From assembly GCF_003052265.1 (NCBI RefSeq), contig NZ_QANS01000001.1, positions 620,001-684,000 of the forward strand: 64,000 nucleotides of DNA, given 5' to 3'. The translations under genes were made by a program, and so were the position numbers. Positions 12,054 to 62,856 of this stretch are shown here, in pieces. How positions within the stretch are numbered: position 1 is the stretch's first letter; each line of letters starts with the position of its first letter. The notes below the pieces were generated by a model, which was given only the letters and a program-made list of their open reading frames with translations, was not told the DNA's origin and did not search any database. This stretch comes from Stenotrophobium rhamnosiphilum (GTDB lineage Bacteria > Pseudomonadota > Gammaproteobacteria > Nevskiales > Nevskiaceae).

Positions 12054-12246
12054 GTCATTTCCTTCATGGTCAGCGTCTTCTTTTGTTAAGACTCCTAGTC
12101 CGACCCGCTATGTGCGGCTCGGTTCCGCTCTTTGTCACAGTATCGACCTCAAACATGACAAGAACTTGGCAGGTATTGTTGGTATAAGGAACGACCAAAA
12201 TGACATGCCAGCCCCGTCATTCCTGACCAAAGCAAGAAGCAGGCCA

Positions 12247-34315: not shown

Positions 34316-35185
34316 ATGTCCTCACCCGCAATTCACGAAGAAATCGTCAATCTTGGTCAGAGCTCCTTGCACTACAGAAGTGCCGGAACCGCAGGAGAAT
34401 TACCTGATGTGTTGATGGAGCATGGTGGTGGTGGCAGTACCGCTGATTGGAGTCTGATTGAGCCGGTGCTTGCCGCGCATGGTCGAGTTTTCACTTACGA
34501 CCGTGCGGGTTCCGGCACGAGTCCGCGCGATGATTTCGGACGTAGTGCAGTCGCCAACACGCAACGCCTAGCCAAACTCGTCGAACAATTGCCAATCAAA
34601 AAACCTTTCGTTCTCGTGGGCTATTCCTTGGGCGGGCTCTATGCGCGTCACTATGCCGCGAAATATCCAGATCAGGTCGCTGGCATCGTTTTGCTGGATG
34701 CCACACCCACGAAGCACGTCATCAAGAAATCAGATTACAACCGCGCGTTTCGCACGATGCATATGTTGCACTGGGCTGCACGTTCTGGATTGGCGAAAGC
34801 GTTTTGGTATCTGAGCGGCAAGAAGATCGAGCGCGAACGCTTCGAGGGTTACATCACAAAATTTTCTTCACCTACATTCATCCCGAATGTGAAGGAAGAG
34901 TTGCTTGCGATTACAACCGTTCAAGCGGATGTTGCAACTCTTGCCGAAGAACTCACGCATCCGAGCTGGGCGATCCTTGCTGGGAGTGCGCCGAAAGCAT
35001 CACAAGCAGCGACGCTCGCAGAAGTGCGAATCCTTCATGATGCGTTGATGGTTAAAGCGCCTGCGCTGAGCGGACAGGTTGTTGTTGCAGGTGCCAATCA
35101 CAGCACCTTGGTCAGTGAAGAGAAGCACGCTGTAACCGTCGCGAATCACATCCTGACTTTCTTACGCAGCTTGGCTTCCCGCTAA
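34316..35185 (+). CDS. Alpha/beta hydrolase
   Basis: A 289-residue cytoplasmic alpha/beta-fold hydrolase. The oxyanion-side motif is MEHGGGGSTADW, the nucleophile elbow GYSLGG has Ser104, an Asp follows at about 220, and His is in GANHSTL (about 267). No signal peptide is seen. The ATG is 3 bp after the receptor stop, so it is in the same transcript. It may cleave an ester or amide bond of the imported compound. The substrate is not known; prolyl aminopeptidases and esterases share this fold. Confidence 0.85.
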   Translation: MSSPAIHEEIVNLGQSSLHYRSAGTAGELPDVLMEHGGGGSTADWSLIEPVLAAHGRVFTYDRAGSGTSPRDDFGRSAVANTQRLAKLVEQLPIKKPFVLVGYSLGGLYARHYAAKYPDQVAGIVLLDATPTKHVIKKSDYNRAFRTMHMLHWAARSGLAKAFWYLSGKKIERERFEGYITKFSSPTFIPNVKEELLAITTVQADVATLAEELTHPSWAILAGSAPKASQAATLAEVRILHDALMVKAPALSGQVVVAGANHSTLVSEEKHAVTVANHILTFLRSLASR

Positions 35186-44122: not shown

Positions 44123-45580
44123 TTAGTCCGCAAATGGATTTTCTACCCGTGGCCAGTAATTGAGGCTGCGAATCTTGTAGGGAATTGCCGCCATATTCCG
44201 GTCAGTGGTTCCCGGGGTCATCAGGTAAATAATTTCGCCAGCAATCGGCGCAAAGCCTTGGTGAAAATGTTGATTGGATTTGACCACAATCAACTGCTTC
44301 TTCAAGACATCAATGCCCAGAGACTTGAAGGTCTCGGGAGAAAATACCTGGCCTCGAATGGAGTTCAGAACCAGATCAAGGCCATCGTCTGATTGAACCC
44401 AGACGACCGTTCCCAGCGGCATTCGCATGCCCAATCCCTGTTCAAACTGATTCTCACGAATCGCGCGAACCGTGACTTTCAGATCAACAGGATCACCCGA
44501 CATTGGGCCGCACTTTCCACCGATGCGTAAATTGAGTGTTGCGCCGATGCCTGCGCTTTTGCATAGCTGTATCGCGCCTAAATCCCAGAAATAGCCGAGA
44601 ACCGCATTGCTGATTCCAACGTCCAGCAGGGCGCGCAATACAAACGTGGCATCGCTCATGGCGCCGCCACCGGGGTTGTCACCGGTATCGGCCAAGACCA
44701 CTGGAGTCGCTTTGGATTGATTCGCTTGCTTGAGCACTTCAGACAAGGGCGATGTTTGAGAATCGGTTTCTCGCTGATCCCAAATCTCTTGGCCCAATTG
44801 CGCCGCAAGCTTCGCAGCCTTTTCGACATCACCATCGGCAATTACCCAGAAACGTGCGCCGGAATCTGCGACATCGCCTGCGGGAAATCCATGACCGAAT
44901 GACACCGAAAGAATGCCGTCTTTGCCTTCGAATGATTTCATGCGTGCGACGAACGATTGCATTGGCTCGCTGGTGGTTGCCCACTTTGCGACCATGCGGG
45001 TGTCGTACATCGCCGTTACTGGCGAGATCTTTTTGGCAACGTGATCAAGCATGATTCGATACAGCTCGCGCTCGCGATCGAGAATATCGGTGTGCGGATA
45101 TTCCTTGTAGCAAATGATCGCATCTGCATTGCTCTGCATTTTTTCCGTGTAGTGACAATGCAGATCGAGCTCAACGCCGATGTGGATGCTGGGGCCGGTG
45201 ATTTGGCGTACGCATTCGATTAAGTCACCTTCGCAATCGTCATAGCCTTCAGCAACCATCGCGCCGTGCAGATACAGCTGCACCGCATCAATCGGCATGG
45301 CTTGCTTCAAATCCGCGAGGATTCGTTCACGAAATTCTTCGTAGACTGCGCGCAGTGTTCGTCCAGCCGGTTGTGCAAACGCACAAAGGCTTTCGATGAC
45401 TTCATGGCCGTCAGCCGCTGCCATGCGTTTCAGTTCGGCATGCATGGCGCCAACGCCAGCGGGATCCTTGATGCTGGCGTCATTCAGATGAATGCCGTAG
45501 GTCTCGTAATCAGTGCGTCCGGTCGGCACCACGGCGAAAGTATTGGTCTCGGTAATCAGCGTCGCTGCGAATATCTTCAT
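44123..45580 (-). CDS. M81 family metallopeptidase (MlrC-like), copy 1
   Basis: A 485-residue zinc hydrolase of the M81/DUF1485 family. Visible signature motifs are TETNTF (10-15), LHGAMV (104-109), ELDLHCHYT (137-145), YKEYPHTD (about 158-165) and DNPGGGAMSDATFVL (about 290). The best known member, MlrC, cleaves linearised microcystin and D-Glu-containing peptides. The frame is open to 45655 but that part carries promoter motifs, and the paralogue at 47909 begins at the same MKIFAAT. No signal peptide is seen. It is divergent from dgcN1, sharing a regulatory region. Confidence 0.88.
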   Translation of the reverse strand: MKIFAATLITETNTFAVVPTGRTDYETYGIHLNDASIKDPAGVGAMHAELKRMAAADGHEVIESLCAFAQPAGRTLRAVYEEFRERILADLKQAMPIDAVQLYLHGAMVAEGYDDCEGDLIECVRQITGPSIHIGVELDLHCHYTEKMQSNADAIICYKEYPHTDILDRERELYRIMLDHVAKKISPVTAMYDTRMVAKWATTSEPMQSFVARMKSFEGKDGILSVSFGHGFPAGDVADSGARFWVIADGDVEKAAKLAAQLGQEIWDQRETDSQTSPLSEVLKQANQSKATPVVLADTGDNPGGGAMSDATFVLRALLDVGISNAVLGYFWDLGAIQLCKSAGIGATLNLRIGGKCGPMSGDPVDLKVTVRAIRENQFEQGLGMRMPLGTVVWVQSDDGLDLVLNSIRGQVFSPETFKSLGIDVLKKQLIVVKSNQHFHQGFAPIAGEIIYLMTPGTTDRNMAAIPYKIRSLNYWPRVENPFAD

Positions 45581-45654
45581 GGGCTCAACTCTAGACCAAC
45601 CGGAAACGTTCGGAAATTGCAGCGGGGAGTGTGCGATCAAACGGGGCAGCGCCA

Positions 45655-45676
45655 TACCGAGGAATCACCGGAATTG
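45655..45676 (-). promoter_or_regulatory. Candidate regulon site for M81 copy 1
   Basis: On the minus strand CAATTCCGGTGATTCCTCGG lies 83 bp before the M81 start. It matches the ridA site (59711-59732) at 19 of 22 positions. Confidence 0.6.
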
Positions 45677-45794: not shown

Positions 45795-46829
45795 ATGAGC
45801 GTTGCCTCCAAATTTGAAACCACGGTGACTCTGCGTACGCCGTACCTGCTTTTCCTCGGCGAGGCGGATTTCGACGCGCGTGCCAAGACTGCGTTCGGTC
45901 TGCGCGACTGGGCGCCGAAACTGTGTCTGGGCCAGATTCGTCTCCCGGCTTGCAAGGTGACCTTGGGCTTGCCTGACATGACGCCTGCCGCCGCTGCGAT
46001 TGCAGGCGCGGGTTCGTTGGTGATCGGCGTTGCGCCTAAGGGCGGGCAGATTGCTGAAAACTGGATTCCTACGCTGCGTCTGGCGATTGATGCGGGTCTG
46101 GATATCGTTAGTGGTATGCACGATTCGCTGGAAGATATTCCCGGCCTCGCTGAAGCAGCCAAAGCGCGCGGCGTTCGTTTGATCAACGTCCGCAACCCGC
46201 CATTGGATTTGCCTACAGGCACCGGCCGCAAACGCACGGGCAAGCGCTTGCTGACAGTGGGAACCGATTGCGCACTCGGCAAAAAATACACCGCGCTGGC
46301 GATTGCCAACGCGATGCGTGCTCAAGGCATTGATGCTGATTTCCGCGCAACCGGCCAGACCGGAATCATGATCGCGGGTCGCGGCTTGCCGATGGATGCC
46401 GTCGTCGCTGATTTCAGCGCTGGTGCAGCAGAATGTTTGTCGCCGGATGCGGCTCCTGATCACTGGGATATCGTTGAAGGGCAGGGTGCACTGTTCCATC
46501 CCGCTTACGCAGGCGTAACGCTTGGTTTGCTGCATGGCTCGCAACCCGATGCGCTGGTGCTGTGCCACGACCCTGCGATCTCAAGAATTAAATCGCTGCC
46601 AGTTTTCCCAACGCCGAGTCTCGAAGTTGCTGCGGCTCGCTATCTCGAAGCAGGCGCACTGACGAACCCTGCGATTCGCTTGGTCGGCGTTAGCCTGATC
46701 ACGGAAAACATGGATGAGGTGACTCGTCAGCGAGTGTTGGGCGATGCCGAACAACGTTTAGGTGTTCCTGCGTTTGATCCTCTGAAGACTTCGCTCCAGC
46801 CGGTAATCGACCGTATGCTTGGTCGATGA
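45795..46829 (+). CDS. dgcN: DgcN-type D-amino acid N-acetyltransferase (DUF1611), copy 1
   Basis: A 344-residue DUF1611 protein. The N-terminal part is a Rossmann-like fold (RTPYLLFLGEADF, KTAFGLRDWAP). The C-terminal part holds the P-loop-like TVGTDCALGKKYT (154-166), RATGQTGIMIAGRGLPMDAVV and FHPAYAGVTLGLLHGSQPD. Characterised members (DgcN) acetylate D-glutamate for racemisation by DgcA. Substrate identity here is not proven. It overlaps dgcA1 by 4 bp. It differs from copy 2 mainly at the N-terminus. Confidence 0.82.
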   Translation: MSVASKFETTVTLRTPYLLFLGEADFDARAKTAFGLRDWAPKLCLGQIRLPACKVTLGLPDMTPAAAAIAGAGSLVIGVAPKGGQIAENWIPTLRLAIDAGLDIVSGMHDSLEDIPGLAEAAKARGVRLINVRNPPLDLPTGTGRKRTGKRLLTVGTDCALGKKYTALAIANAMRAQGIDADFRATGQTGIMIAGRGLPMDAVVADFSAGAAECLSPDAAPDHWDIVEGQGALFHPAYAGVTLGLLHGSQPDALVLCHDPAISRIKSLPVFPTPSLEVAAARYLEAGALTNPAIRLVGVSLITENMDEVTRQRVLGDAEQRLGVPAFDPLKTSLQPVIDRMLGR

Positions 46830-47809
46830 AACGTAAGCTAAAAGTCAGTACTCGCTCTTGGCGGCTCAAAGAGCCGTTTGTCATCGCGCGCGGCAGCCGC
46901 ACAACCGCCAACGTCATTGTTGTTGAGTTGGAAGGTGATGGACATGTGGGGCGTGGCGAAGCCGTTGGCGTGACTTATCGCGGCGAAACGATTGATGAAT
47001 TGATCAAGCAGGTTTCGCAGGCGCAGGGCGTTGTTGAAGCGGGCGCTAGCCGAACAGAGCTTTTGCATTTTCTCCCGGCTGGCGGCGCACGCAATGCAAT
47101 TGATGCGGCGATGTGGGATTTGGAAGCCAAACAGTCCGGCATCCCCGCGTGGAAAAGCGCAAAGATGAAATCGGGTGATAGCGTCGAAACCGCGATCACC
47201 ATCGGCATGCGTTCCGTGGATGCTTATGAAACCGCTGCTCGACAGCTGTCCGGTCATCCATGGATCAAAATCAAAGTCGCGAAGGATGATCCTGTTGCGG
47301 CCGTAGCGGCTGTCCGTAGAGCAGCCCCGAAGTCGCGTCTGATTGTTGATGCCAATCAGGCATGGGAACTGGACGATCTGATTAAGTTTGCGCCTGAGCT
47401 GGAAAAGCTCGGCGTTGCTCTTCTTGAGCAGCCTCTGGCCGTTGGTCGCGACGAAGGCTTGGCAGGCGTGCGATGCCCCATACCTATTTGTGCGGATGAA
47501 TCGGTCAATACGATTGATGACCTAGCGCATCTTGTCGGCCGCTACAGCTTCATCAATATCAAGCTCGACAAGACCGGTGGATTGACCTCTGCGCTGACGC
47601 TTGCTCATGCCGCGCAGGACTGCGGATTCCGACTCATGAGCGGCTGCATGGTGGCGAGTTCGCTCGCCATGGCGCCCGCAATGATTTTGGCGCAGATGTG
47701 CGAGATCAATGATCTGGACGGCCCGATGCTGCTTGCAGAAGATTGGCCCGGCGGAATCCGTTGTGATCTCGGCAAGATGCAGCCCCCTTGGCCGGACTTT
47801 TGGGGCTAG
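46826..47809 (+). CDS. dgcA: DgcA-type N-acetyl-amino acid racemase, copy 1
   Basis: A 327-residue enolase-superfamily enzyme. It has the acid/base pair K148-x-K150 on the second strand, metal ligands D175, E201 and D224, and K246 opposite, the pattern of the dipeptide-epimerase/N-acylamino-acid-racemase branch. DgcA turns N-acetyl-D-glutamate into the L-form, after which a deacetylase frees L-glutamate. The ATG overlaps the dgcN1 stop. The presence of both lysines says 1,1-proton transfer is intact. Downstream, M81 copy 2 starts 100 bp later. Confidence 0.85.
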   Translation: MKRKLKVSTRSWRLKEPFVIARGSRTTANVIVVELEGDGHVGRGEAVGVTYRGETIDELIKQVSQAQGVVEAGASRTELLHFLPAGGARNAIDAAMWDLEAKQSGIPAWKSAKMKSGDSVETAITIGMRSVDAYETAARQLSGHPWIKIKVAKDDPVAAVAAVRRAAPKSRLIVDANQAWELDDLIKFAPELEKLGVALLEQPLAVGRDEGLAGVRCPIPICADESVNTIDDLAHLVGRYSFINIKLDKTGGLTSALTLAHAAQDCGFRLMSGCMVASSLAMAPAMILAQMCEINDLDGPMLLAEDWPGGIRCDLGKMQPPWPDFWG

Positions 47810-47908
47810 GATCGTCGGCAGGCGAACTCCTAGTATTTATACGGATGTGTACGCAGGGCTGACCTGCGAGATTCATATTACAAATCACGCTGTTTGATTA
47901 GGATTTCC

Positions 47909-49363
47909 ATGAAGATTTTTGCCGCTACCTTTGCTACTGAAACCAATACATTTGCGGTTGCGCCGACAGGGCGTATTGATTTTGAAGCGGTTGGCGTCTT
48001 TCACGGTGATGGCAGCGCGCTGAGCCCAACCGGCATCGGCATTTTTCATGCTGAACTACAGAAGCTCGCTGCAGCAGACGGACATCAGCTTGTTGAAAGT
48101 CTCGCAGCGTTTGCACAGCCTTCGGGCCCTACGCTGCGTGCGGTGTATGAAGAATTCCGTCAAACCATTCTTGATGATCTGAAAGCTGCAATGCCGGTGG
48201 ATGCCGTGTTGCTGGTGCTACATGGCGCGATGGTCGCGCAGGGTTATGACGATTGCGAAGGTGATCTCACCCAGCATGTGCGCGAGATTGTCGGCCCCAA
48301 TGTGCCGATTGGCATGGAGTTGGATCTGCACTGCCATTACACGCAACTGATGCGCAAGAGCGCAGACATCATCATTGCTTACAAAGAGTATCCGCATACC
48401 GACGGCCTTGATCGTCTGCGTGAGCTTTACGTACTGACGACCCAGCAGGCCAAGGGCAATATCAAGCCCGTGACCGCTGTGCACGATTGCCGCATGGTCG
48501 GCATCTGGCACACGACGAAGGAGCCGATGATTTCCTTCGTCAAGCGTATGCAATCTTTTGAAGGCAAAGATGGCGTGTTGTCAGTTTCTTTAGGCCACGG
48601 ATTCCCTTGGGGAGACGTTGTAGAAAACGGCGCGATGCTGTGGGTTGTCACCGACAACGATTTGGAAAAAGCCGACGCTCTGGCCAAGCAACTAGGCCGC
48701 GAGTTCTGGGATCTGCGTGCGCAGACTTACGAAGCACCGATGACAATCGCTGCGGCATTGACCGAAGCCAATGCTGAAAAAGCAGGCCCGGTTGTGCTGG
48801 CTGACATTGGCGACAATGCAGGTGGTGGTGCGATGAGTGATAGCACTTTCGTGCTCAAGCAGATGATCGAGATGGGCATCAGCAACGCTGCCATCGGCGC
48901 GTTCTGGGATCTGGGTGCAGTGGCAATCTGCAAAAGCGCCGGCGTGGGTGCAGAAATTAATCTTCGCCTCGGCGGAAAATGTGGCCCGCAGTCTGGTGAT
49001 CCGATTGATGTGCGCGTCACTGTGCGCGCGATTAATGATGAACACAGTCAGCGTGGACTTGGTGCGATCTATCCTTTGGGGACGGGCGTGTGGGTTCAAA
49101 CGCAGAACGGCATCGATATCGTGTTAAACACGCGACGCACGCAAGTGTTCTCACCAGATGCCTTCGAGAACCTTGGCATTTCGATGGAAGACAAGCAGAT
49201 GATCATCGTGAAGTCATCGCAGCATTTTCATGCCCTGTTCGCGCCTATTGCGAAGAAGGTGCTCTACATCGGAACGCCGGGATCAACTTCGCAAACGTTT
49301 GCTGATATTCCGTTCGTTAAGCGCAGCCTGAACTACTGGCCTAAAGTAGAAAATCCATCGTAA
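47909..49363 (+). CDS. M81 family metallopeptidase (MlrC-like), copy 2
   Basis: A 484-residue paralogue of the M81 enzyme at 44123, same length and start (MKIFAATFATETNTF), with LHGAMV, ELDLHCHYT, YKEYPHTD and DNAGGGAMSDSTF. ATG 47909 behind TTAGGA is preferred over an earlier in-frame start. It follows dgcA1 in the same direction. A 6-bp hairpin CGCAGG-GCTGA-CCTGCG (47852-47868) sits in the gap. It may cut a D-residue bond in a peptide, or act as the hydrolase that frees the amino acid from its N-acyl form; the latter is speculation. Confidence 0.88.
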   Translation: MKIFAATFATETNTFAVAPTGRIDFEAVGVFHGDGSALSPTGIGIFHAELQKLAAADGHQLVESLAAFAQPSGPTLRAVYEEFRQTILDDLKAAMPVDAVLLVLHGAMVAQGYDDCEGDLTQHVREIVGPNVPIGMELDLHCHYTQLMRKSADIIIAYKEYPHTDGLDRLRELYVLTTQQAKGNIKPVTAVHDCRMVGIWHTTKEPMISFVKRMQSFEGKDGVLSVSLGHGFPWGDVVENGAMLWVVTDNDLEKADALAKQLGREFWDLRAQTYEAPMTIAAALTEANAEKAGPVVLADIGDNAGGGAMSDSTFVLKQMIEMGISNAAIGAFWDLGAVAICKSAGVGAEINLRLGGKCGPQSGDPIDVRVTVRAINDEHSQRGLGAIYPLGTGVWVQTQNGIDIVLNTRRTQVFSPDAFENLGISMEDKQMIIVKSSQHFHALFAPIAKKVLYIGTPGSTSQTFADIPFVKRSLNYWPKVENPS

Positions 49364-49384
49364 CGGCATCGTGAGAAAAACCTA

Positions 49385-50614
49385 ATGTCGTATGTCCTGC
49401 TAGAAAATGCCCGACTGTTTGATGGCGTATCGCCTACGATCAGAGAAGGCGTGTCGGTACTGATTGACGGCAATCGCATCGTCGAAGTCTCCGAGTCGAA
49501 GATTCAGGTGGAGAACGCCGATCGCATCGATTGCCAAGGCAAAACACTGATGCCGGGCATGATTGATGCTCATGTGCATATTTATGCAGAGTCATTGAAG
49601 TTCGGTTCGCCCGAGCCACCGATCACGTATCGCGCTCAATACGCGCAGAAGTTCATGCGCCACATTCTCGGCTGCGGCTTCACATCGATCCGTGATGTTG
49701 CGGGCGGTGATCACGGCATGGCGATGGCGCTGCGTGACGGATTCTTTGTTGGCCCTCGTTATTACTACGGCGGTTTGTGCTTGTCGCAAACGGGCGGTCA
49801 TGGCGATCTTCGTCAGAACTATGCTTCGGCATCGTTTTGCGATTGCGGTGCAACCCATAACTTCTTGGCCGTGATTGCGGATGGCGTTGATGAGTGCATC
49901 AAGGCTGTACGTGAAGAACTACGCAAAGGCGCCAACCACATCAAGATCATGGCATCGGGTGGCGTGTTGTCGCCGAGCGATCCGCTTGAGCGTTGCCAGT
50001 ATTCCGACGCAGAAATCCGCGCCATCGTTGAAGAGTGCGATCGCCGTGGTGCCTATGTTGCGGCACATTGCCACACGGACAAATCCATTCGTCGCTGTGT
50101 CGAACTCGGTGTTCGCACGATTGAACATGGCACGCTAATTGAAGAAGAAACAGCACAGTTTGTTGCTGAACGTGGAGCTTTTGTCGTGCCGACAATGGCG
50201 ACGATCTTCGCGCTCAAAGATGAGGGCAAGTCCTTCGGCATCGACGCGGTGTCTTACGAAAAGCTGTGTCGCGTTGCAGACTCCGCTATGGATGGCCTTG
50301 CAGTGATGAAAAAGGCTGGCGTCAAAATGGGCTTCGGCAGTGATCTGATCGGGCCGATGCATGTGCGTCAGGGAACAGAGTTCACGCTGCGCCGGAACAT
50401 GTTGTCAGCCTGGGACATCCTGCATTCCGCAACGGTAGTGAATGCAGAAATCATAGGCATGGCCGGACAGCTTGGTGCTGTGATGCGGGGGTATCTGGCA
50501 GATTTGCTACTCGTGGATGACAATCCTCTCGACAACATTGATCTACTGGCAGCCAACGGCGCGCATTTGTCGCTGATCATGGTGGACGGCAAGTTCATCA
50601 AGCGCACTATTTAG
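49385..50614 (+). CDS. Amidohydrolase, metal-dependent (Xaa-Pro dipeptidase-like)
   Basis: A 409-residue TIM-barrel metal-dependent hydrolase with H63-V-H65, the carboxylated Lys in NHIKIMASGG (about 180), His in AAHCHT, EHG, and the final Asp in FGSDL. The best family guess is the imidazolonepropionase/prolidase-like subgroup that includes Xaa-Pro dipeptidases acting on dipeptides and on N-acyl-amino acids. It starts 21 bp after the M81 stop and is in the same operon, so it may cut dipeptides released by the other peptidases or remove acetyl groups from the DgcA product. Confidence 0.8.
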   Translation: MSYVLLENARLFDGVSPTIREGVSVLIDGNRIVEVSESKIQVENADRIDCQGKTLMPGMIDAHVHIYAESLKFGSPEPPITYRAQYAQKFMRHILGCGFTSIRDVAGGDHGMAMALRDGFFVGPRYYYGGLCLSQTGGHGDLRQNYASASFCDCGATHNFLAVIADGVDECIKAVREELRKGANHIKIMASGGVLSPSDPLERCQYSDAEIRAIVEECDRRGAYVAAHCHTDKSIRRCVELGVRTIEHGTLIEEETAQFVAERGAFVVPTMATIFALKDEGKSFGIDAVSYEKLCRVADSAMDGLAVMKKAGVKMGFGSDLIGPMHVRQGTEFTLRRNMLSAWDILHSATVVNAEIIGMAGQLGAVMRGYLADLLLVDDNPLDNIDLLAANGAHLSLIMVDGKFIKRTI

Positions 50615-50696
50615 GTAGGCGCTAAACCGGATCGGCACACACAACAGTCGAAGTGTTTGTTGGCAGAAGGATCACAGCGACACACTTTGAGACGAC

Positions 50697-52058
50697 ATGC
50701 GTACGAGTATTCTTGACCTCTTCAGAATAGGCGTTGGTCCTTCCAGTTCACATACGGTTGGTCCGATGCGTGCAACGCATGCGTTTGCCACATCACTCGC
50801 GACTTATGGGCAGTTGCTGGAAACAAAGCGAATCGAGGTAGAACTGTTTGGATCTCTGGCACTGACCGGAGTAGGGCATGGCACTGATCGCGCAGTCTTG
50901 TTGGGACTCAGCGGCGAGCGTCCAGACACAGTCGATCCGGACTGCATCGAACCGATCATTACTTCGATCAAAACGAATCAGCGCCTGAATTTGCTCGGTC
51001 AGCAGTCGATCGATTTCAACATCAAAACGGATCTGTTGTGGCGTAGAGATTTGACCTTGCCGGGTCATCCCAATGCACTTGCGTGTCGGGCATTCAATGC
51101 TGACGGGAAACTCCTGCAAAGCCGCACCTACTATTCCATCGGTGGTGGTTTCGTATTGCTTGAAGGCGAATCTGCACAGGCTGAGGTTGCGTATGCAGTG
51201 CCGCATCCTTTCTCAAGCGCAAGAGAATTGCTTGATCGCGCGACTGCTGCAAATCTTCCGATTTGGAAAGTAATTCTAGAAAACGAATCAGCGCGTCATG
51301 GCGAAGCGGTGGTGCGCAAGTACGTCGATGACATCTGGGCCGCGATGCGTGCCTGCATGGAACGCGGACTTATCACCTCCGGAATATTGCCGGGTGGTCT
51401 AAACGTAAAACGTCGTGCACCACGCTTGCATGCGCGACTCGCGGAGCAGAGCAGCAACGATCCGATGGTGGGCATGGATTGGATCAATGTTTATGCGATG
51501 GCGGTTAACGAAGAGAACGCTGCCGGAGGTCGTGTAGTTACTGCGCCTACGAATGGCGCAGCTGGCGTCATCCCCGCAGTACTGCGTTACTACGAACGCT
51601 TTGTGCCTGGTGCTGATCAGGACGGAGTGCTGCGTTTCTTTTTAACAGCGGGCGCGATTGGCGTTCTCTACAAGGAAAACGCTTCCATATCTGGCGCAGA
51701 AGTCGGTTGCCAGGGCGAAGTAGGCGTCGCCTGCTCAATGGCCGCGGCGGGTTTCGTTGCTGCTTTAAACGGAAGCAATATCGAAATTGAACATGCCGCT
51801 GAAATCGGCATGGAGCATCACCTGGGCATGACCTGTGATCCGATTGGTGGCTTGGTGCAGATTCCTTGCATCGAGCGAAATGCGATTGGTGCAGTCAAAG
51901 CCATCAACGCATCTCGCATGGCGATGCAAGAAGGATCAGAACACTCAGTCACGCTGGATCAAGTGATCAAGACGATGTTTGAAACCGGACGTGACATGCA
52001 ATCGCGCTACAAAGAAACCTCGTTGGGAGGTTTGGCGGTTAATGTCGTTGAGTGTTAA
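50697..52058 (+). CDS. sdaA: L-serine ammonia-lyase (iron-sulfur)
   Basis: A 453-residue one-chain L-serine dehydratase, the same length as E. coli SdaA. The N-terminal beta domain starts [22 protein letters not shown]. The alpha domain carries [13 protein letters not shown] and the cluster cysteines in [34 protein letters not shown]. It turns L-serine into pyruvate and ammonia through 2-aminoacrylate. It is last in the dgcN1 operon, where it could drain serine made by inversion of D-serine. The gap of 82 bp before it has a weak GTGTTTGTTGG motif. Confidence 0.95.
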
Positions 52059-52067
52059 CGCGACAAG

Positions 52068-52098
52068 ACTCGCACATCAGTTTTAGCTGAGTGCGAGT
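52068..52098. terminator. Hairpin between sdaA and convergent regulator gene
   Basis: ACTCGCAC-A-TCAG / CTGA-GTGCGAGT with loop TTTTAG gives a 12-bp stem with a one-base bulge at the convergent ends of sdaA and the LuxR regulator, extending into the last codons of the latter. No T-run is visible. Confidence 0.4.
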
Positions 52099-53192
52099 AC
52101 CAGCTGCGTGCGGCGGCTGAGGCTCAACTTGCGGTAAATCGAGTTGAGCTGGAATTCAATCGTGCGACGTGAGCGGCACAGGTGCTCGGCAATTTCATCA
52201 TTGCGCAGACCCTTGGCAACTAGAAGAGCAACACGACGTTCAGTTGGCGAGAGCTTCTGTAGCGCGGTCCAAGCTTCGGGTGACGGCTGTGCCGATGCCT
52301 TGCTGTCATCGCTTTCATCGTTGTGTTCATCGGCCAAGGTGACGACGTAGCAAGGACGTTCGCGCAAAGCGGCCGTGTGCAAATTACGTTCTACCGTTGC
52401 CGTCAGCCCTTTGATGTGCGGGTGATGTAGTTTCAGCGTTTTTCCACCCACAGCCTGGGGGCTGCTGGCAAAGAGATGGATCAAATTTTCAGGCAGCGAC
52501 AGTTTGCGTTCGGCCGTTTCACGCAGACCGCGGTTCCAGCGCTCGCTGAGCTTTTTACCTTCTGCGGTGGCGAACAGCTGGTGTCCATCCTGTGCGATCA
52601 ACAAGGTCGCAATCGGCATGCGGTACAAAAGATCTTCGTAGGCGAGGCGACGTGCGCAATCTTGCTCGAGTGCACGAATGCGCCGAAGACTGGCTTCGAT
52701 CATCGGGTGCAGGTACTCGAGGAAGGCACGGTCATCGCTACTGAGCTCTGACTGCTCGGGTGGGCGATGAATACTCAGAACCGCTTCTGGCTGCTCATCG
52801 CGCCAGAAAGCCAGATGGACGAAATCGGTCCATTCCGGATCAGGCTCCTGCTCGACACGCCGACGCATCGCATCCGGATCTTCCGAGACGATCTGCGAAT
52901 AGGTGTAAAGCTGAATCTTGGGGTGACGCTCGAGATACGGACCAGAAATGGTCAGGCTGGTCGCCGGCACATAGTCAGGATTGCGTGAATACTCGACATG
53001 GTGTTTGGCGCTCGTTGGTTCGAAGCCAACGATATTGAACATGAGGCTGCATGAACGATGTGGCAATTGATTCCGGACCAGCTTCAGGCAACTTTTCCAG
53101 ATGCTGTCGAGATCAAGCGCGCTCTGTAGCTCGACGACTGCGGCGTGCGAGTCATCAAGAAGTTTGGCTGGGCGGTTGCGGATGTTTTGCAT
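52083..53192 (-). CDS. LuxR-family regulator of the D-amino acid island
   Basis: A 369-residue regulator. Residues 20-190 look like a GAF/PAS-type sensory domain (AVVELQSALDLDSIWKSCLKLVRNQL), followed by a second region with YRMPIATLLIAQDGHQLFATAEGKKL. The C-terminal GerE helix-turn-helix (about 310-369) is LSPTERRVALLVAKGLRNDEIAEHLCRSRRTIEFQLNSIYRKLSLSRR. It is divergent from the D-amino acid dehydrogenase gene; the intergenic region holds stacked palindromes of the same AACACC/GGTGTT type found before other genes in the island. That makes it the best candidate for the regulator of all of them. Confidence 0.82.
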   Translation of the reverse strand: MQNIRNRPAKLLDDSHAAVVELQSALDLDSIWKSCLKLVRNQLPHRSCSLMFNIVGFEPTSAKHHVEYSRNPDYVPATSLTISGPYLERHPKIQLYTYSQIVSEDPDAMRRRVEQEPDPEWTDFVHLAFWRDEQPEAVLSIHRPPEQSELSSDDRAFLEYLHPMIEASLRRIRALEQDCARRLAYEDLLYRMPIATLLIAQDGHQLFATAEGKKLSERWNRGLRETAERKLSLPENLIHLFASSPQAVGGKTLKLHHPHIKGLTATVERNLHTAALRERPCYVVTLADEHNDESDDSKASAQPSPEAWTALQKLSPTERRVALLVAKGLRNDEIAEHLCRSRRTIEFQLNSIYRKLSLSRRTQLVLALS

Positions 53193-53225
53193 GGATTGAG
53201 TATATCCATAGCACTTTCTTGGGCG

Positions 53226-53265
53226 CTAGGTAAAAACACCTGAAATTAGGTGTTTTACACCTAAG
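53226..53265. promoter_or_regulatory. Stacked palindromic operator between luxR-type and dauA-like genes
   Basis: A perfect 9-bp inverted repeat AAAACACCT-GAAATT-AGGTGTTTT (53233-53256) is overlapped on both sides by AGGTAAAAACACCT and AGGTGTTTTACACCT. It contains the regulon core in both directions, one toward each gene, so it should control both, giving autoregulation. Confidence 0.7.
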
Positions 53266-53342
53266 TCCACCTATGCCTTAGTACGCACTATTCGGTGTAT
53301 TTACTGATGTGATCAACAGGTCTGCCGATTAGGCTGAGTTCC

Positions 53343-54479
53343 ATGATTGATCTGCAAAAATTTGACGTTATCGTCATTGGCGCCGGCATCGTCGGCGCAG
53401 GGGTGGCGGCTGAATTAGGCGCGGGGGTGCGGGCGGCCGTGCTTGAACAAGAAGCGCAGCCTGGTTATCACACCACCGGCCGCTCAGCCGCAGTGTTTGC
53501 TGAGAGCTATGGTGGCGAAACTGTTCGCGCCTTGTCTCGTGCAAGCCGGTCGTTTTTGACTTCTCCGACGGCGGGCTTCACCAATACAACACTGCTGACA
53601 CCGCGTGGATTTCTATTCGTGGCGCGGGAAGACCAACTCAGTGGCTTGGAAACATTCGCTGATCAGGCGGATATGCGACTCACCGCCAAGCGCCTGACGC
53701 TCCCGCAAGCTTTCGAACGTATGCCATTGCTGCGACCTGAATACGTCGCTGGAGCGTTGCTAGACGAAGGTGCGAGCGATATCGAAGTTCATGCTTTGCA
53801 TCAAGGCTATCTGTCGATGCTCAAGCGCAACGGTGGAAAATTATTCTGCAACGCTCGCGCGAACACGATCCAGAAGATCGGCAACGTCTGGCGCGTAAGC
53901 ACTGAAGCGGGTGAGTTCGAAGCGCCCATCTTGGTCAACGCAGCAGGTGCGTGGGCAGAGCAAGTCGGCAACATGGCAGGCGTTAAGGGCATTGGCCTTC
54001 AACCGATGCGACGCACTGCAGCTTTGGTTGATGTGCCCGCCAGCGCAGGCATGGAGCACTGGCCGCTGACGATTGATATCGACGAAGAGTTTTACTTCAA
54101 ACCTGATGCGGGTCGTCTGCTGATTTCACCTGCGGATGAAACTTTGAGCGAACCTTGCGATGCAGTGCCCGATGACATGGATCTGGCGATTGCAGTGGAT
54201 CGCATCGAACGTGCGACCACGCTGGATATCCGGCGTATGCACAGCAGTTGGGCTGGCTTGCGCAGCTTCGTTTCAGACCGCACGCCTGTTGCTGGCTTTG
54301 CATCCGATGCGCCGGGATTTTTCTGGCTCGCAGGACAGGGCGGCTATGGCGTGCAGACTGCACCGGCACTGTCGCGCTTCGCTGCTTCACAGGTACTTGG
54401 ACAGGCATTGCCTGCTGATCTGATCGACGTAGGCCTCAGTCCAGAAAAACTTTCACCAGCACGATTGCAAAACACCTGA
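53343..54479 (+). CDS. DauA-like D-amino acid (D-arginine) dehydrogenase
   Basis: A 378-residue FAD-dependent DadA/DAO-family oxidoreductase with the flavin motif VIVIGAGIVGAGVAAELG (10-27). The QPGYHTTGRSAAVFAESYGGETVRALSRASRSFL stretch and the C-terminal HSSWAGLRSFVSDRTPVAGFASDAPGFFWLAGQGGYGVQTAPA are very like Pseudomonas DauA, which oxidises a broad set of D-amino acids to 2-oxo acids via imines. The electron acceptor is probably a membrane quinone. RidA nearby would hydrolyse the imine product. It opens an operon with dgcN2 (123 bp gap with its own promoter). Confidence 0.85.
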   Translation: MIDLQKFDVIVIGAGIVGAGVAAELGAGVRAAVLEQEAQPGYHTTGRSAAVFAESYGGETVRALSRASRSFLTSPTAGFTNTTLLTPRGFLFVAREDQLSGLETFADQADMRLTAKRLTLPQAFERMPLLRPEYVAGALLDEGASDIEVHALHQGYLSMLKRNGGKLFCNARANTIQKIGNVWRVSTEAGEFEAPILVNAAGAWAEQVGNMAGVKGIGLQPMRRTAALVDVPASAGMEHWPLTIDIDEEFYFKPDAGRLLISPADETLSEPCDAVPDDMDLAIAVDRIERATTLDIRRMHSSWAGLRSFVSDRTPVAGFASDAPGFFWLAGQGGYGVQTAPALSRFAASQVLGQALPADLIDVGLSPEKLSPARLQNT

Positions 54480-54511
54480 TGCAGTGGGGCTCATGCTCGC
54501 TTGTGGTGCGC

Positions 54512-54602
54512 AGGAAGTAGCAATTTCCCGCGTTATTACGGATGCGACGCGCCATCCTCAACTGGTCTACTGACACAGTCGAAATTAACCAAGAGATGAA
54601 TC
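54512..54602 (+). promoter_or_regulatory. dgcN2 promoter region, conserved with dgcN1
   Basis: CAATTTCCCG (54521-54530) followed by CGTTATT lies 73 bp before the TTG start. Both the motif and the downstream TACTG (54568), GTC and CC-AGAG match the dgcN1 leader at the same distances. This suggests the promoter was copied with the gene and kept. Confidence 0.6.
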
Positions 54603-55670
54603 TTGAAACTGCTTTCCACTCAGCCTCAAACCGCTACAGTCGACCACGCCGAAGGCTTCGCCACGACGGTCGTCATCCGTAAGCCATACCTGTTATTCCT
54701 TGGAGAAGCGACGCATTTCTCTCAGGCCAAGACAGCATTTGGACTGCGCGATTGGGCACCAGAATCTTGCGTAGGGCAATGGTCTTTGCCGGGCTGTGCA
54801 GTGACGCTGGAACTCGCTGAGATGAATCCAGCGCAGGCCGCGGCGAAAGGCGCGGGCTCGCTGCTGATTGGTATTGCGCCAGTTGGCGGACGCGTTTCAG
54901 AGAGCTGGATTCCTAGCTTGTTCGCAGGCATCGAAGCCGGTCTAGATATCGTCAGCGGCATGCACACCTCGCTTGCAGATATCCCCGGACTCGCCGATGC
55001 AGCAAAGGCACGTGGCGTGCGCCTGGTTGATGTGCGTCGTCCACCAGAGAATCTGCCTACGGGCACTGGCCGCAAGCGCAGCGGCAAGCGATTGCTGACA
55101 GTGGGCACTGACTGCGCACTCGGCAAAAAATATACGGCGCTCGCTTTGACGAAGGCGCTTCGTGATCGTGGCGTTGATGCAGATTTCCGCGCCAGCGGCC
55201 AGACCGGCATTTTGATTGCAGGCAGCGGCATCCCGATGGATGCAGTTGTTGCTGACTTCACCGCTGGTGCTGCCGAGTGCTTGTCGCCAGATGCAGCGCC
55301 TGCGCACTGGGACATCGTTGAAGGGCAGGGCTCGTTGTTTCATCCCGCCTATGCCGGTGTAACGCTGGGCTTGGTGCATGGTTCGCAGCCTGACGCGATG
55401 GTGCTTTGCCATGACCCGTATCGCACGCACATTATTGCTGCGCCGGATTTTCCGACGCCGTCGCTGAAAGTTGCGATCAAACAGTATGAAGAAGCTGCGC
55501 AGCTGACCAATCCCGATGCACGCGTGGTTGGCATCAGCTTCAACACTTCGGCGCTTAGTGATGCTGAACGTAGCAAGTTGTTTGCTGACACGGAAAGTGA
55601 GCTGGGTTTGCCTTGTTTCGATCCTTTGAAGACATCAATGACCGCTGTCGTCGACCGGATGCTTGCCTAA
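54603..55670 (+). CDS. dgcN: DgcN-type D-amino acid N-acetyltransferase (DUF1611), copy 2
   Basis: A 355-residue DUF1611 protein, clear paralogue of the one at 45795, with TVGTDCALGKKYT, RASGQTGILIAGSGIPMDAVV and FHPAYAGVTLGLVHGSQPD. It starts at TTG 54603, the only start in frame that matches the paralogue by alignment of the AGAG ribosome binding sites; an ATG at 54596 is out of frame. An 11-residue longer N-terminus (QPQTATVDHAEG) is the main difference. The dgcA2 start overlaps its stop by one base. It presumably acts on the same or a related D-amino acid. Confidence 0.82.
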   Translation: MKLLSTQPQTATVDHAEGFATTVVIRKPYLLFLGEATHFSQAKTAFGLRDWAPESCVGQWSLPGCAVTLELAEMNPAQAAAKGAGSLLIGIAPVGGRVSESWIPSLFAGIEAGLDIVSGMHTSLADIPGLADAAKARGVRLVDVRRPPENLPTGTGRKRSGKRLLTVGTDCALGKKYTALALTKALRDRGVDADFRASGQTGILIAGSGIPMDAVVADFTAGAAECLSPDAAPAHWDIVEGQGSLFHPAYAGVTLGLVHGSQPDAMVLCHDPYRTHIIAAPDFPTPSLKVAIKQYEEAAQLTNPDARVVGISFNTSALSDAERSKLFADTESELGLPCFDPLKTSMTAVVDRMLA

Positions 55671-56653
55671 TGAAACGCACACTCAAGGCCTATGTGCGTT
55701 CGTGGCCGATGAACGAACCATTCGTCATTGCACGCGGCGCACAGACTTCGGCGGATGTCGTCGTTGTTGAAATTGGCTACGGCAATCTCGTCGGGCGAGG
55801 CGAGGCTGCGGGCGTTATGTACGCTGGTGAAACGCCAGAGACGATGCTGCAACAGATTCAGCAGGTTCGTGAATCGGTTGAAAACGGCGTTGATCCCGCC
55901 GGTCTTCTGTCGCTATTGCCTGCGGGCGGTGCGCGCAACGCACTTGATGCTGCGTTGTGGGATTTGGAATCAAAAATAACGGGCGTCCGCGCTTGGCGTC
56001 GCGCTGGTCTGGATCGTGGCGATGCGATCACGACGGCGATCACCATTGGTATTCGTGCAATACCTGAATACGAAAAATCTGCACGCGTGTTGGCAAATAA
56101 CGCATGGATCAAGATCAAGGTCGATAAGACCGATCCGCTCGGCGCTGTGCGTGCTGTGCGTCTTGCTGCGCCGAATGCGAAATTGGTTGTCGATGCGAAT
56201 CAGGCTTGGACGGTTGAAGACCTGAAGAATTTTATGCCTGCGTTGCTTGAGCTCCGCGTTGATTTGTTGGAGCAGCCGGTGAAGGTTGGCTTTGATGATG
56301 GCTTGAGCGGATACGAAAGTCCGATCCCGATTTGCGCGGATGAATCCATTAATACCGTTGCAGATCTGCCGAGTCTGGTCGGTCGTTACAGTTTCATCAA
56401 CATCAAGCTCGACAAGACCGGCGGTTTAACCACGGCTCTGGAACTTGCGCGCGAAGCGCAGAAGCTGGGTTTCCGTTTGATGAGCGGCTGCATGTGTGGC
56501 GGCTCTCTGGCGATGGCGCCTGCGATGGTGTTGGCGCAGCTGTGCGAGATCAATGATCTCGACGGCCCGATGCTGCAATCAGAAGACTGGCCCGGTGGCA
56601 TCGTCTACAAGAATGGCGTGATGACGCCGCCATGGCCTGAATTCTGGGGATGA
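55670..56653 (+). CDS. dgcA: DgcA-type N-acetyl-amino acid racemase, copy 2
   Basis: A 327-residue enolase-superfamily enzyme, the paralogue of dgcA1 and of the same length. It has IKIKVDK with the paired lysines, VDANQAW, LLEQPV, ICADES and INIKLDKTGG at corresponding positions. ATG 55670 forms TAATG with the dgcN2 stop, so it is translationally coupled; a longer frame from 55613 overlaps dgcN2 and is not needed. It should racemise an N-acetyl-amino acid. It is 7 bp before an ACT-like small gene and in the same transcript as tdh and kbl, which differs from the serine-linked dgcA1. Confidence 0.85.
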   Translation: MKRTLKAYVRSWPMNEPFVIARGAQTSADVVVVEIGYGNLVGRGEAAGVMYAGETPETMLQQIQQVRESVENGVDPAGLLSLLPAGGARNALDAALWDLESKITGVRAWRRAGLDRGDAITTAITIGIRAIPEYEKSARVLANNAWIKIKVDKTDPLGAVRAVRLAAPNAKLVVDANQAWTVEDLKNFMPALLELRVDLLEQPVKVGFDDGLSGYESPIPICADESINTVADLPSLVGRYSFINIKLDKTGGLTTALELAREAQKLGFRLMSGCMCGGSLAMAPAMVLAQLCEINDLDGPMLQSEDWPGGIVYKNGVMTPPWPEFWG

Positions 56654-56660
56654 AAATCTT

Positions 56661-56951
56661 GTGGTGAAGTGCCGCTTTCAGATTTCTGCGGAAGCAGATC
56701 CGCTGGTTGCGGTGCGTGTTTTTCACCTGATCTCCGTGCGCAATGCAACGCCGGAGAAATTCAGTTTCGAAAAGAACGGCACACAGATTCGCATGACGCT
56801 GGACATGCTTTGCCGCGACGAGCCGACATCGCGTCTGTTGGAGTGCAAGTTCTTGAGTATTCCAACAGTCAATCAAGTGCTGCGAGTGGTGTTCCCCAAA
56901 GTGCTCGCAGGCAATGTTGATGAAACTCCAGCGCCAGCCTTTTGGATTTAA
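56661..56951 (+). CDS. Small ACT-like domain protein
   Basis: A 96-residue protein starting at GTG, 7 bp after dgcA2. The sequence KCRFQISAEADPLVAVRVFHLISV, then GTQIRMTLDMLCRDEPTSRLLECKFLSIPTVNQVLRV, follows the beta-alpha-beta-beta-alpha-beta order of ACT domains such as the small subunit of acetolactate synthase (IlvM). ACT domains bind amino acids to regulate an enzyme. A lone ACT protein in a D-amino acid operon could control DgcN or Tdh, but no partner is shown. The first operon has no counterpart. Confidence 0.6.
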   Translation: MVKCRFQISAEADPLVAVRVFHLISVRNATPEKFSFEKNGTQIRMTLDMLCRDEPTSRLLECKFLSIPTVNQVLRVVFPKVLAGNVDETPAPAFWI

Positions 56952-57019
56952 GCGCTATCTGGTTTGCGTATCAGCCTGAGTAGGCAATCGATTCGCAGCT
57001 TTCAATATGAGATGACACG

Positions 57020-58048
57020 ATGAAAGCACTCGTTAAGCAAGAAGCAAAAACAGGTCTTTGGCTCAAAGATGTTCCAGAGCCTGAGATCGGCATCAACGAT
57101 GTCCTCATTAAAGTGAAGCGCACCGCAATCTGCGGCACCGACATGCACATCTGGAATTGGGATGCGTGGGCGCAGAAAAACATTCCTGTGCCGATGGTCG
57201 TGGGTCACGAGTTCGTCGGTGAGATTGTTGAAGTCGGCTCCAACGTCAACGATTTTCATCCGGGCCAAATCGTTTCTGGCGAAGGCCATGTCGTCTGCGG
57301 TCGTTGCCGAAATTGTATGGCCGGTCGTCGTCATCTGTGTGCGCACACCAGTGGCATCGGCGTTAATCGTCCCGGCTCATTCGCTGAGTACGTGTCGTTG
57401 CCGATGGCGAATATCTGGGTGCATCGCGACGATATCGATCTGGATGTTGCAGCACTGTTTGATCCATTCGGCAACGCAGTTCATACGGCCTTGAGCTTTC
57501 CAGTTCTTGGAGAAGATGTGTTGATTGCGGGCGCTGGCCCCATCGGCATCATGGCAGCTGCGGTATGTCGTCATGCCGGTGCACGCCATGTTGTGATCAC
57601 TGACATCAATCCTGAACGCTTGCGTCTTGCGGTGAAGATGGGTGCGACGCGTGGCGTTGATGTGCGCACGGAAAAGCTTGCTGATGTGCAGAAGGAATTG
57701 GGCATGACAGAAGGCTTTGATGTGGGCCTTGAGATGTCCGGCAATCCATCTGCATTCCGCGATCTGTTGGAAAATCTTTGCCACGGCGCCAAAGTCGCCA
57801 TGCTTGGTATTCCGTCTGGCGAAGTCGCTATCGACTGGAATACGGTGATCTTCAAGATGCTGACGATCAAAGGCATCTATGGTCGTGAGATGTATGACAC
57901 CTGGTACAAGATGTCGACGATGATCGACTCGGGCCTCGATCTGCGCCCGATCATCACGCATCGCTTGCCTTACGCCGAGTTCGCCGATGGCTTCGATGCC
58001 ATGAATAGCGGCAAAGCGGCGAAGGTCATTCTTGATTGGTCGAAGTAG
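57020..58048 (+). CDS. tdh: L-threonine 3-dehydrogenase
   Basis: A 342-residue zinc alcohol dehydrogenase-family enzyme of E. coli Tdh length. The catalytic zinc ligands are C38, H63 and E64; the structural zinc cysteines are C93, C96, C99 and C107; the NAD fold has [10 protein letters not shown]. The C-terminal [23 protein letters not shown] is specific to Tdh. It oxidises L-threonine to 2-amino-3-ketobutyrate, the substrate of the next gene, 13 bp on. Its position after dgcN2-dgcA2 hints that this copy of the pathway feeds threonine catabolism. Confidence 0.97.
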
Positions 58049-58061
58049 GGCGGATTGAACG

Positions 58062-59246
58062 ATGAATACGGCTTACCGCGACCACCTCACATCTGAGCTC
58101 GCCGCAATACGCGCGGCAGGTTTGTACAAAGGCGAGCGCGTCATTGAGACGCCGCAGAATAGTCATGTCGGTGTTTCAGGCAAGCGCCTGATTAATCTTT
58201 GTGCGAATAACTATCTGGGTTTGGCGCAAGACGAAGAAGTGCGTCAGGCGGCCATGCGCGGCTTGGAGACCTGGGGCTATGGCATGGCCTCGGTCCGTTT
58301 TATCTGCGGCACGCAGACGATTCACAAGCAGCTGGAAGCGACGCTATCCAAATTCTTGGGCATGGAGAGCACGATTCTCTATCCATCCTGCTTTGATGCA
58401 AACGGTGGTTTGTTCGAGACGCTGCTCACGGAAGCTGACGCCGTTATCTCTGATGAGTTGAATCACGCCAGCATCATCGACGGTGTTCGCTTGTGCAAAG
58501 CCAAGCGTTATCGCTATAGCAACAACAATATGGCGGACTTGGAGCAGAAGCTTCAGCAGGCGCGCAGTGATGGCGCTCGCTTTGTGCTGATCTCCAGCGA
58601 TGGTGTGTTCTCTATGGATGGGACCATTGCCCGCGTTGACGAGATTTGCGCATTGGCTGAGAAGTATCAAGCGCTGGTGCACATTGATGAAGCGCATGCC
58701 ACCGGATTCGTTGGTAGCAGCGGCAGAGGCACTCACGAATATCGTCAGTGCATCGGCAAGGTCGACATCATCACCGGCACGCTAGGCAAGGCCTTAGGTG
58801 GTGCCAGCGGTGGATTTACTGCCGCCAGCAGCGAAATCGTTGAGATGCTGCGTCAGCGCTCGCGGCCTTATTTATTCTCCAATACCGTTCCGCCCGTCGT
58901 CGTTGCTGGAGCCATCAAGGCATTGGAGATTGCAGAAAGCGCCAATCATCTGCGAGCGGCACTGAAACGAAATGGCGAGCACTTCCGTAAAGGATTGACT
59001 GCTGCCGGATTTGAATTGCTGCCCGGTGAACATCCCATCATCCCGGTGATGCTGCACGACGCTACGCTCGCAGCGAAAGTCGCTGAGGGTTTGTTAGCTG
59101 AGGGCGTTTACGTCACCGCGTTCTCATATCCAGTCGTGCCAAAAGGCAAAGCACGCATCCGCACGCAGATGTCAGCAGCGCACACGCTTGATGAGTTAGA
59201 TCAAGCGATCGCTGCGTTCACCGCGGTGAAAAAGAGATTGATGTAA
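58062..59246 (+). CDS. kbl: 2-amino-3-ketobutyrate CoA ligase (glycine C-acetyltransferase)
   Basis: A 394-residue PLP enzyme of the alpha-oxoamine synthase family. Signature stretches are [42 protein letters not shown] and the PLP lysine K243 in [12 protein letters not shown]. It splits 2-amino-3-ketobutyrate with CoA into glycine and acetyl-CoA. It forms the normal tdh-kbl pair and ends the dgcN2 operon. The next gene, ridA, converges with a 9-bp gap. Confidence 0.97.
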
Positions 59247-59255
59247 GTCGTATGG

Positions 59256-59651
59256 CTACTTCTGTGAAGCGCCCGCATAAGCCGTCGCTTCGATCTCTAC
59301 CTTTGCGCCGGGAATCAGCAAATCACTGACTACCGTTGAGCGAGCGGGTGGGTTGTTCGGGAAGTACTCGCGGTAGGTGTTGTTGAAAGCCGCAAAATCC
59401 GCCTTGTCCGTAATCCACACGCTGACCTTAACAATAGCGTCGAGGCCCACGCCTGCTTGCCCAAGAATGGTGCGAATGCGCTCAATGGCTTGTCGCGTTT
59501 GTGCAGTGATGTCATCGGCGACCAATACACCTTTGTCATCAAGGCCCAACTGGCCCGATGCAAAAACAAAATCCCCAGCGCGAACAGCAGGCGTGAGAGG
59601 CACTGTGCTGCCATTGGCCAGAACCATGGGTTTGCCGATGTATTGGATCAC
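59256..59651 (-). CDS. ridA: RidA-family enamine/imine deaminase
   Basis: A 131-residue RidA/YjgF protein starting at GTG 59651. The conserved parts are FVFASGQLGLDDKG, the DAIVKVSVWITDKADFAAFNNTYREYF segment, the catalytic Arg in PPARSTVV (about 105) and VEIEATAYA. It hydrolyses reactive imines and enamines, such as 2-aminoacrylate from serine dehydratase and imino acids from D-amino acid dehydrogenase, both encoded nearby. It has its own regulon site 67 bp upstream, on the opposite strand from kbl. Confidence 0.93.
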   Translation of the reverse strand: MIQYIGKPMVLANGSTVPLTPAVRAGDFVFASGQLGLDDKGVLVADDITAQTRQAIERIRTILGQAGVGLDAIVKVSVWITDKADFAAFNNTYREYFPNNPPARSTVVSDLLIPGAKVEIEATAYAGASQK

Positions 59652-62834: not shown

Positions 62835-62856
62835 CAAAACTCCATTGTCGAATCGT

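Follow-up and report, generated by a model that had tools for sequence, protein, structure and literature searches.

We analyzed a 64,000-nucleotide stretch (the window) of the Stenotrophobium rhamnosiphilum contig NZ_QANS01000001.1 (GCF_003052265.1), to which all coordinates refer, and which carries two pairs of genes coding for homologs of the N-acetyltransferase DgcN and the racemase DgcA. Both pairs, first proposed in a first-pass annotation of this DNA, were recovered by Pfam and NCBIfam profile matches at 45795–47809 (DgcN1–DgcA1) and 54603–56653 (DgcN2–DgcA2). They belong to a cluster spanning 39295–59651, which begins on the reverse strand with two PF00144 hydrolases, a GPH transporter and the first of two M81 metallopeptidases. 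It continues on the forward strand with DgcN1, DgcA1, M81 copy 2, an amidohydrolase and SdaA, and, past a LuxR-type regulator on the reverse strand, with a flavin adenine dinucleotide (FAD) dehydrogenase, DgcN2, DgcA2, a 96-residue open reading frame (ORF), Tdh and Kbl, before closing with the reverse-strand RidA (Table 1). The two DgcN proteins are paralogs that arose by duplication inside the family of the host bacterium, and DgcN1 has lost two polar residues that are uniform in the other DgcN proteins aligned.

The earlier identification of M81 copy 2, the amidohydrolase and L-serine dehydratase beside the first pair was borne out, as was that of tdh–kbl beside the second. The ORF described there as ACT-like does exist, but it gave no Pfam match at E 0.1 and shows just short, weak similarity in other loci. 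Absent from that annotation were the DauA-type dehydrogenase, the LuxR-type regulator between the modules and the RidA-type protein after kbl. Just past the cluster (61596–63978), another PF00144 protein, the third, is found together with an MFS transporter. A plasmid search with the locus returned no match.

Table 1. Genes of the D-amino-acid cluster and its flank, in window coordinates.
Feature	Coordinates	Strand	Remarks
TonB-dependent receptor	31673..34312	+	Resembles cassette receptors elsewhere; here two other genes intervene before the cluster
Alpha/beta hydrolase	34316..35185	+	Adjoins the TonB receptor
PF00144 serine hydrolase, D-aminopeptidase-like	39295..40956	-	STSK motif
PF00144 serine hydrolase, D-aminopeptidase-like	40953..42611	-	STTK motif
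GPH/MFS_2 transporter	42633..44009	-	
M81 metallopeptidase copy 1	44123..45655	-	
DgcN1, DUF1611 N-acetyltransferase-like	45795..46829	+	Positions 262 and 302 both Ile in place of Arg and Asn; P-loop GTDCALGKKYT unaltered
DgcA1, N-acetyl-D-Glu racemase family (enolase superfamily)	46826..47809	+	Start overlaps the DgcN1 stop
M81 metallopeptidase (MlrC-like) copy 2	47894..49363	+	Zinc ligands kept; MlrC E70/W59/F67 not
Amidohydrolase	49385..50614	+	Nearest solved relatives 3MKV, 3FEQ/3N2C (names include 'prolidase')
L-serine dehydratase SdaA (sda_mono)	50697..52058	+	Sole copy found in the genome
LuxR-type regulator	52083..53192	-	Lies between both modules
DauA-type FAD D-amino-acid dehydrogenase	53343..54479	+	Directly upstream of DgcN2
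DgcN2, DUF1611 N-acetyltransferase-like	54603..55670	+	Usual Arg and Asn present
DgcA2, N-acetyl-D-Glu racemase family	55670..56653	+	ATG at 55670 overlaps the DgcN2 TAA
Short ORF, 'ACT-like' in the first-pass annotation	56661..56951	+	96 residues, GTG start
L-threonine 3-dehydrogenase Tdh	57020..58048	+	Second tdh (83%) elsewhere in the genome
Glycine C-acetyltransferase Kbl	58062..59246	+	Next best in the genome 34% identical
RidA-type protein (PF01042)	59256..59651	-	After kbl

Family membership of the paired proteins

DgcN1 and DgcN2 both score above the curated gathering cut-offs for PF07755 and PF17396 and are the only DUF1611 genes found in the genome. The NCBIfam DgcN profile NF041892 matches them at full length with 442 and 455 bits, respectively; since its cut-off of 480 is not reached, we refer to them as 'DgcN-like'. 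Their partners pass the racemase profile NF042940 (cut-off 400 bits) with 417.4 bits for DgcA1 and 402.2 bits for DgcA2, the latter scanned as the longer ORF with a TTG start from 55613. Identity between the copies is 69% for DgcN1/DgcN2, 62% for DgcA1/DgcA2 and 62.5% for the two M81 proteins. The predicted DgcN1 model (52-row alignment; predicted local distance difference test score 94.9) has the fold of the solved DgcN: its nearest solved structure is DgcN-25328 (7XRJ; Z 45.7, root-mean-square deviation 1.4, 331 residues, 48% identity).

DgcA1 possesses K148, K150, D175, E201, D224 and K246, which we take to be the KxK, D, E, D, K racemase motif of the enolase superfamily, and the same segments are present in DgcA2. 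Arg22 is likewise conserved in DgcA1; in the B. subtilis epimerase, the corresponding Arg presumably binds the Glu side chain. Gln303 is found in 15 of 16 near DgcA relatives, with Leu in all three members of the DgcA1 group; Leu is also common further out.

Duplication of the module and divergence of DgcN1

A DgcN tree was built from 7XRJ and 90 distinct locus proteins, 91 rows in all. Of the 120 matches behind it, 3 were excluded as short or containing unknown residues and the remainder merged as near-copies. DgcN1 groups with its orthologs from two further genomes, G027 and G032 (three rows, support 100/100), and DgcN2 with five other proteins (six rows, 100/97). Jointly they make up exactly one nine-row clade (97/89), and hence the duplication took place within the lineage of the window's family. 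Both clades are kept in the window's genome, G027 and G032, occupying separate places in the latter two. With any DgcN match at E 1e-30 in just 13 of the 85 genomes of the order, and none in a genome of the same genus (G001), the distribution of the modules is patchy.

Next, we compared the 127 alignment columns that are at least 85% conserved in the 88 rows outside the DgcN1 clade. Only two of these, Arg262 and Asn302 (DgcN1 numbering), are altered in more than one of the three members of the DgcN1 clade, a feature that emerged from this comparison and not from a published definition. First, Arg is found at position 262 in 88/88 of the other rows, with I/I/V in the DgcN1 clade. Second, Asn is found at 302 in 88/88, with I/I/I in the clade. 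DgcN2 has the usual residues at both positions, as do 12/12 further sequences sampled from the class (one of them, L140, once a gap introduced by BLAST is undone) and, in the alignment, the distant 2G0T. The P-loop of DgcN1 is intact, and the ratios of nonsynonymous to synonymous substitution rates (dN/dS) of the three pairs of DgcN1 orthologs (0.08, 0.13 and 0.30) indicate purifying selection. Thus, the suggestion in the first-pass annotation that the copies have split found support: DgcN1 forms a distinct, constrained clade in three genomes with two uniform positions changed, and at the sequence level its divergence is well supported. Redundancy of the two pairs accordingly appears unlikely.

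In the DgcN1 model, position 262 lies in the loop after strand 253–258 and position 302 directly after strand 295–301, placing both at the C-terminal, active edge of the P-loop sheet; the fold relatives include dethiobiotin synthetase. In a comparison of the DgcN profile with BioD, the P-loop half aligns over 98 columns (E 2.5e-5, probability 75%). When the threshold is relaxed, Asn302 falls on an invariant Asn of BioD (N176, first row) within a low-confidence stretch. This residue is, we assume, the one that binds adenine in E. coli BioD, and the match would point to nucleotide (donor) recognition. As judged from the model, the change at Arg262 and Asn302 may alter the choice of acyl donor or acceptor.

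Of the two partners, the racemase is possibly the one that varies more. Among 74 DgcA rows (2 of them PDB chains), 41 have R and 28 have G at the Arg22 position, and 37 have N and 36 have C at the Cys274 position; these types vary even though DgcN retains its Arg and Asn in the rows outside the DgcN1 clade. At single loci in G032, G027 and G019 (L132, L133 and L134), a DgcN2-type protein 73–74% identical to DgcN2 is paired with a DgcA just 45–48% identical to DgcA2, which suggests an exchange of partners between DgcN2-type proteins and DgcA in these genomes.

Partners of the modules in other genomes

From the identity of the neighbors, the first-pass annotation had suggested that the first pair acts on a substrate such as D-Ser, feeding SdaA, and the second on one such as D-Thr, feeding Tdh–Kbl. 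The arrangement in the window is suggestive: SdaA follows DgcN1, DgcA1, M81 copy 2 and the amidohydrolase on the same strand with gaps of less than 90 bases, and Tdh–Kbl lie behind DgcA2 on the same strand. However, neither clade has SdaA, Tdh or Kbl as a conserved partner. Among the best 80 of at least 534 confirmed loci of DgcN2 relatives (one genome per species; 59 of the 80 stretches at least 18 kb), a serine dehydratase was found at one locus, Tdh with at least 40% identity at none (a single match had 23%) and Kbl at none. In the same sample, a DgcA homolog occurs at 61 loci and a PF00144 hydrolase at 43 (4 with at least 40% identity), the latter being a raw count and not an enrichment figure. 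A LuxR protein like that of 52083–53192 occurs at 10, including loci of Stenotrophomonas and Pseudoxanthomonas, where it sits just upstream of dgcN and may control the module.

Closer relatives gave the same picture. Within the family, seven further modules, two of the DgcN1 type and five of the DgcN2 type, were read in stretches of 10.9–19.9 kb, and none of the three genes was found there. Kbl was not found at E 1e-100 in any of 11 relatives (a dgcN-type gene is present in 10 of them, G001 being the exception), the query recovering itself at 1e-262 and a 34% homolog at 1e-62 in its own genome. SdaA was not found at E 1e-60 in 6 of the same 11, including the Stagnimonas-type G034. At the Stagnimonas locus L005, RidA directly follows the DgcA2 ortholog with no tdh–kbl between; thus, in this one comparison, the 96-residue ORF, tdh and kbl fill a gap that is absent there. 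The three enzymes themselves pass their NCBIfam cut-offs with 667.7 (SdaA, sda_mono), 584.2 (Tdh) and 633.5 bits (Kbl). The genome has one copy each of SdaA and Kbl and a second tdh at another site, consistent with a role in general L-amino-acid catabolism. In the reading we prefer, the three serve locally as drains for L-amino acids and are not markers of specificity. The second Tdh (L137, G000:C18:103000-118000) lies beside a GPH transporter 55% identical to that of the window, with no Kbl match nearby; a TonB receptor and an FAD monooxygenase-like gene, judged by eye from the translations, follow.

The partners that do recur at the family loci of both clades are PF00144 hydrolases, M81 peptidases, the GPH transporter, the DauA-type dehydrogenase, RidA, the amidohydrolase, LuxR, the TonB receptor and the alpha/beta hydrolase. 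One stretch, L131, is short, its contig ending close behind the pair. The DgcN1 locus of G027 (L128) also has another zinc-type dehydrogenase, unmatched by the Tdh query; a transposase-like gene (HTH_38, rve) and a GNAT/FeeM-like protein lie nearby (11682–12686 and 13803–15350 of L128).

Peptidase and dehydrogenase neighbors

No M81 genes other than these two were found in the genome. Mapped by alignment on copy 2 only, the MlrC functional residues (as given in an excerpt of PMC9982164) are kept at the zinc ligands E39, D167, H169 and H191 and at N41 and F96, with the catalytic/substrate residues E70, W59 and F67 replaced by T, F and L. MlrC cleaves the Adda–Glu bond, according to an excerpt of PMC4810221, and an M81 enzyme beside a D-Glu enzyme therefore makes sense in kind. 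The two PF00144 proteins have the SxxK motif and score 141.9 and 164.5 bits with the D-aminopeptidase profile NF009622, below its cut-off of 443 bits. The combination of PF00144, M81 and a transporter had also brought to mind a microcystin (mlr) cluster, a candidate we rejected: the M81 copies score 333.4 and 334 bits with the MlrC profile NF041767 (cut-off 999 bits), while MlrA was not searched for.

The dehydrogenase upstream of DgcN2 is a full-length homolog of DauA (3NYC, E 4e-98). The residues Y53, R222, E246, Y249 and R305 of PaDADH are kept in it (assigned by hand from the alignment, as chain number minus 6). DauA (PaDADH) oxidizes D-amino acids except D-Asp and D-Glu, as stated in excerpts of PMC11193025 and PMC10655190, and the Dgc modules are therefore best read as a branch for acidic D-residues.

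Functional interpretation

The above observations—the gene identities, recurring neighbors, duplication, residue changes and constraint—suggest a locus devoted to the uptake and breakdown of peptides with D-residues, the peptide substrate being what we infer from its genes. The TonB receptor and the GPH transporter would import peptides, which the PF00144 and M81 enzymes would hydrolyze. The DauA-type dehydrogenase would then oxidize most of the free D-residues, leaving to the Dgc modules those that it refuses, most likely D-Glu and D-Asp. After the duplication in the family, DgcN2–DgcA2 would have retained the usual site and, presumably, acidic specificity, with DgcN1–DgcA1 diverging toward an altered one. 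We consider it fairly probable that both pairs N-acetylate and then racemize their substrates in such a D-peptide locus, the second in the usual form and the first as a diverged version.

Since two uniform polar residues on the active edge of its P-loop domain are lost, DgcN1 probably acts with another acyl donor or D-amino-acid acceptor. More tentatively, and with somewhat less than even confidence, we propose that DgcN1–DgcA1 neofunctionalized after the duplication within Nevskiaceae, with DgcN1 now using another acyl donor or N-acylating some other, less polar D-amino acid derived from the D-peptides taken up.

Several points weigh against this reading. On the side of DgcN1, its clade has three members only, two of their three pairwise dS values are close to saturation (above 1.4), and 2OBN, a distant DUF1611 protein outside the 88-row set, has Gln at the Arg position (with N at the Asn position). 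To these are added the low confidence of the BioD alignment around Asn302 and the scores below the NF041892 cut-off. On the side of the locus, the partner subsets differ from one locus to another: L128 has only PF00144 and LuxR of the recurring partners, and the TonB receptor was not seen at L005. In the dehydrogenase, H48 and E87 of PaDADH are replaced by Val and Phe, and its substrate range may therefore differ. Lastly, SdaA lies about 17 kb from a DgcN2-type module in G019 and G032 (not in G027); it may thus be a loose member of the island, in which case its association is with the DgcN2 clade and not with that of its neighbor in the window.

Among the alternatives, the strongest is that both copies catalyze the same D-Glu/D-Asp reaction, with the second retained because of dosage or a regulation of its own and with changes in DgcN1 that are neutral or a matter of tuning. 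The consensus is shared by more than one of the three DgcN1 members at 125 of the 127 conserved columns; the P-loop and the DgcA catalytic set are kept, the kinds of partners are the same for both clades, and two LuxR regulators lie near the modules. Nevertheless, two positions uniform in 88/88 rows have gone from polar to hydrophobic in 3/3 members of the DgcN1 clade, and both clades have been retained in three genomes; we therefore regard this alternative as unlikely, if worth keeping in view. The loss of the same two residues could instead mean that DgcN1 gave up acetyltransferase activity for a non-catalytic role, but the low dN/dS (0.08–0.30), the intact P-loop and other conserved columns, and the overlap of its frame with an intact DgcA1 make this very improbable. 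Least credible of all is the D-Ser/D-Thr division: although the altered positions of DgcN1 could be accommodated by it, its supposed drains are all but missing from the loci surveyed above, the usual Arg and Asn sit in the 'threonine' copy, both DgcA proteins share one set of racemase residues, and epimerization of D-Thr at the alpha carbon yields L-allo-Thr and not the L-Thr used by Tdh, which arises only from D-allo-Thr.

If the more tentative proposal of a neofunctionalized DgcN1–DgcA1 is true, N-acylation followed by racemization would be a general way to invert D-residues and not the acidic ones alone. None of the papers listed in a literature search (supplements excluded) dealt with dgcN copies that are paired or diverged. 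DgcN1 and DgcN2 offer a ready enzyme pair, with two point reversions, for asking what sets the donor and acceptor choice of DgcN. Further, the locus ties Dgc to genes for D-peptide uptake and hydrolysis, which bears on the recycling of resistant bacterial and cyanobacterial D-peptides.

Comparison with known systems

The locus shares with the mlr genes (MlrB, MlrC, MlrD) the PF00144 hydrolases, an M81 protein with the MlrC zinc ligands and an adjoining transporter. It differs in the 333–334 bits of its M81 proteins against a cut-off of 999 and in the lack of E70, W59 and F67 in copy 2. The dehydrogenase resembles the D-arginine dehydrogenase DauA (PaDADH) in its full-length homology and the five residues kept, and differs from it at H48 and E87. 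A further close system is the DgcN–DgcA pathway of D-glutamate, the enzymes of which are EC 2.3.1.312 and 5.1.1.25 in an excerpt of PMC11747546; an excerpt of PMC12363236 gives DgcN a key part in a pathway that handles acidic D-amino acids and their amides. In common are the same two gene families, the overlapping pair, the 48% full-length match to 7XRJ and DgcA scores above the racemase_DgcA cut-off. What sets the present locus apart is that it holds two paralogous modules, with DgcN proteins under the NCBIfam cut-off and a DgcN1 without two conserved residues, set among TonB, PF00144, M81 and DauA-type genes.

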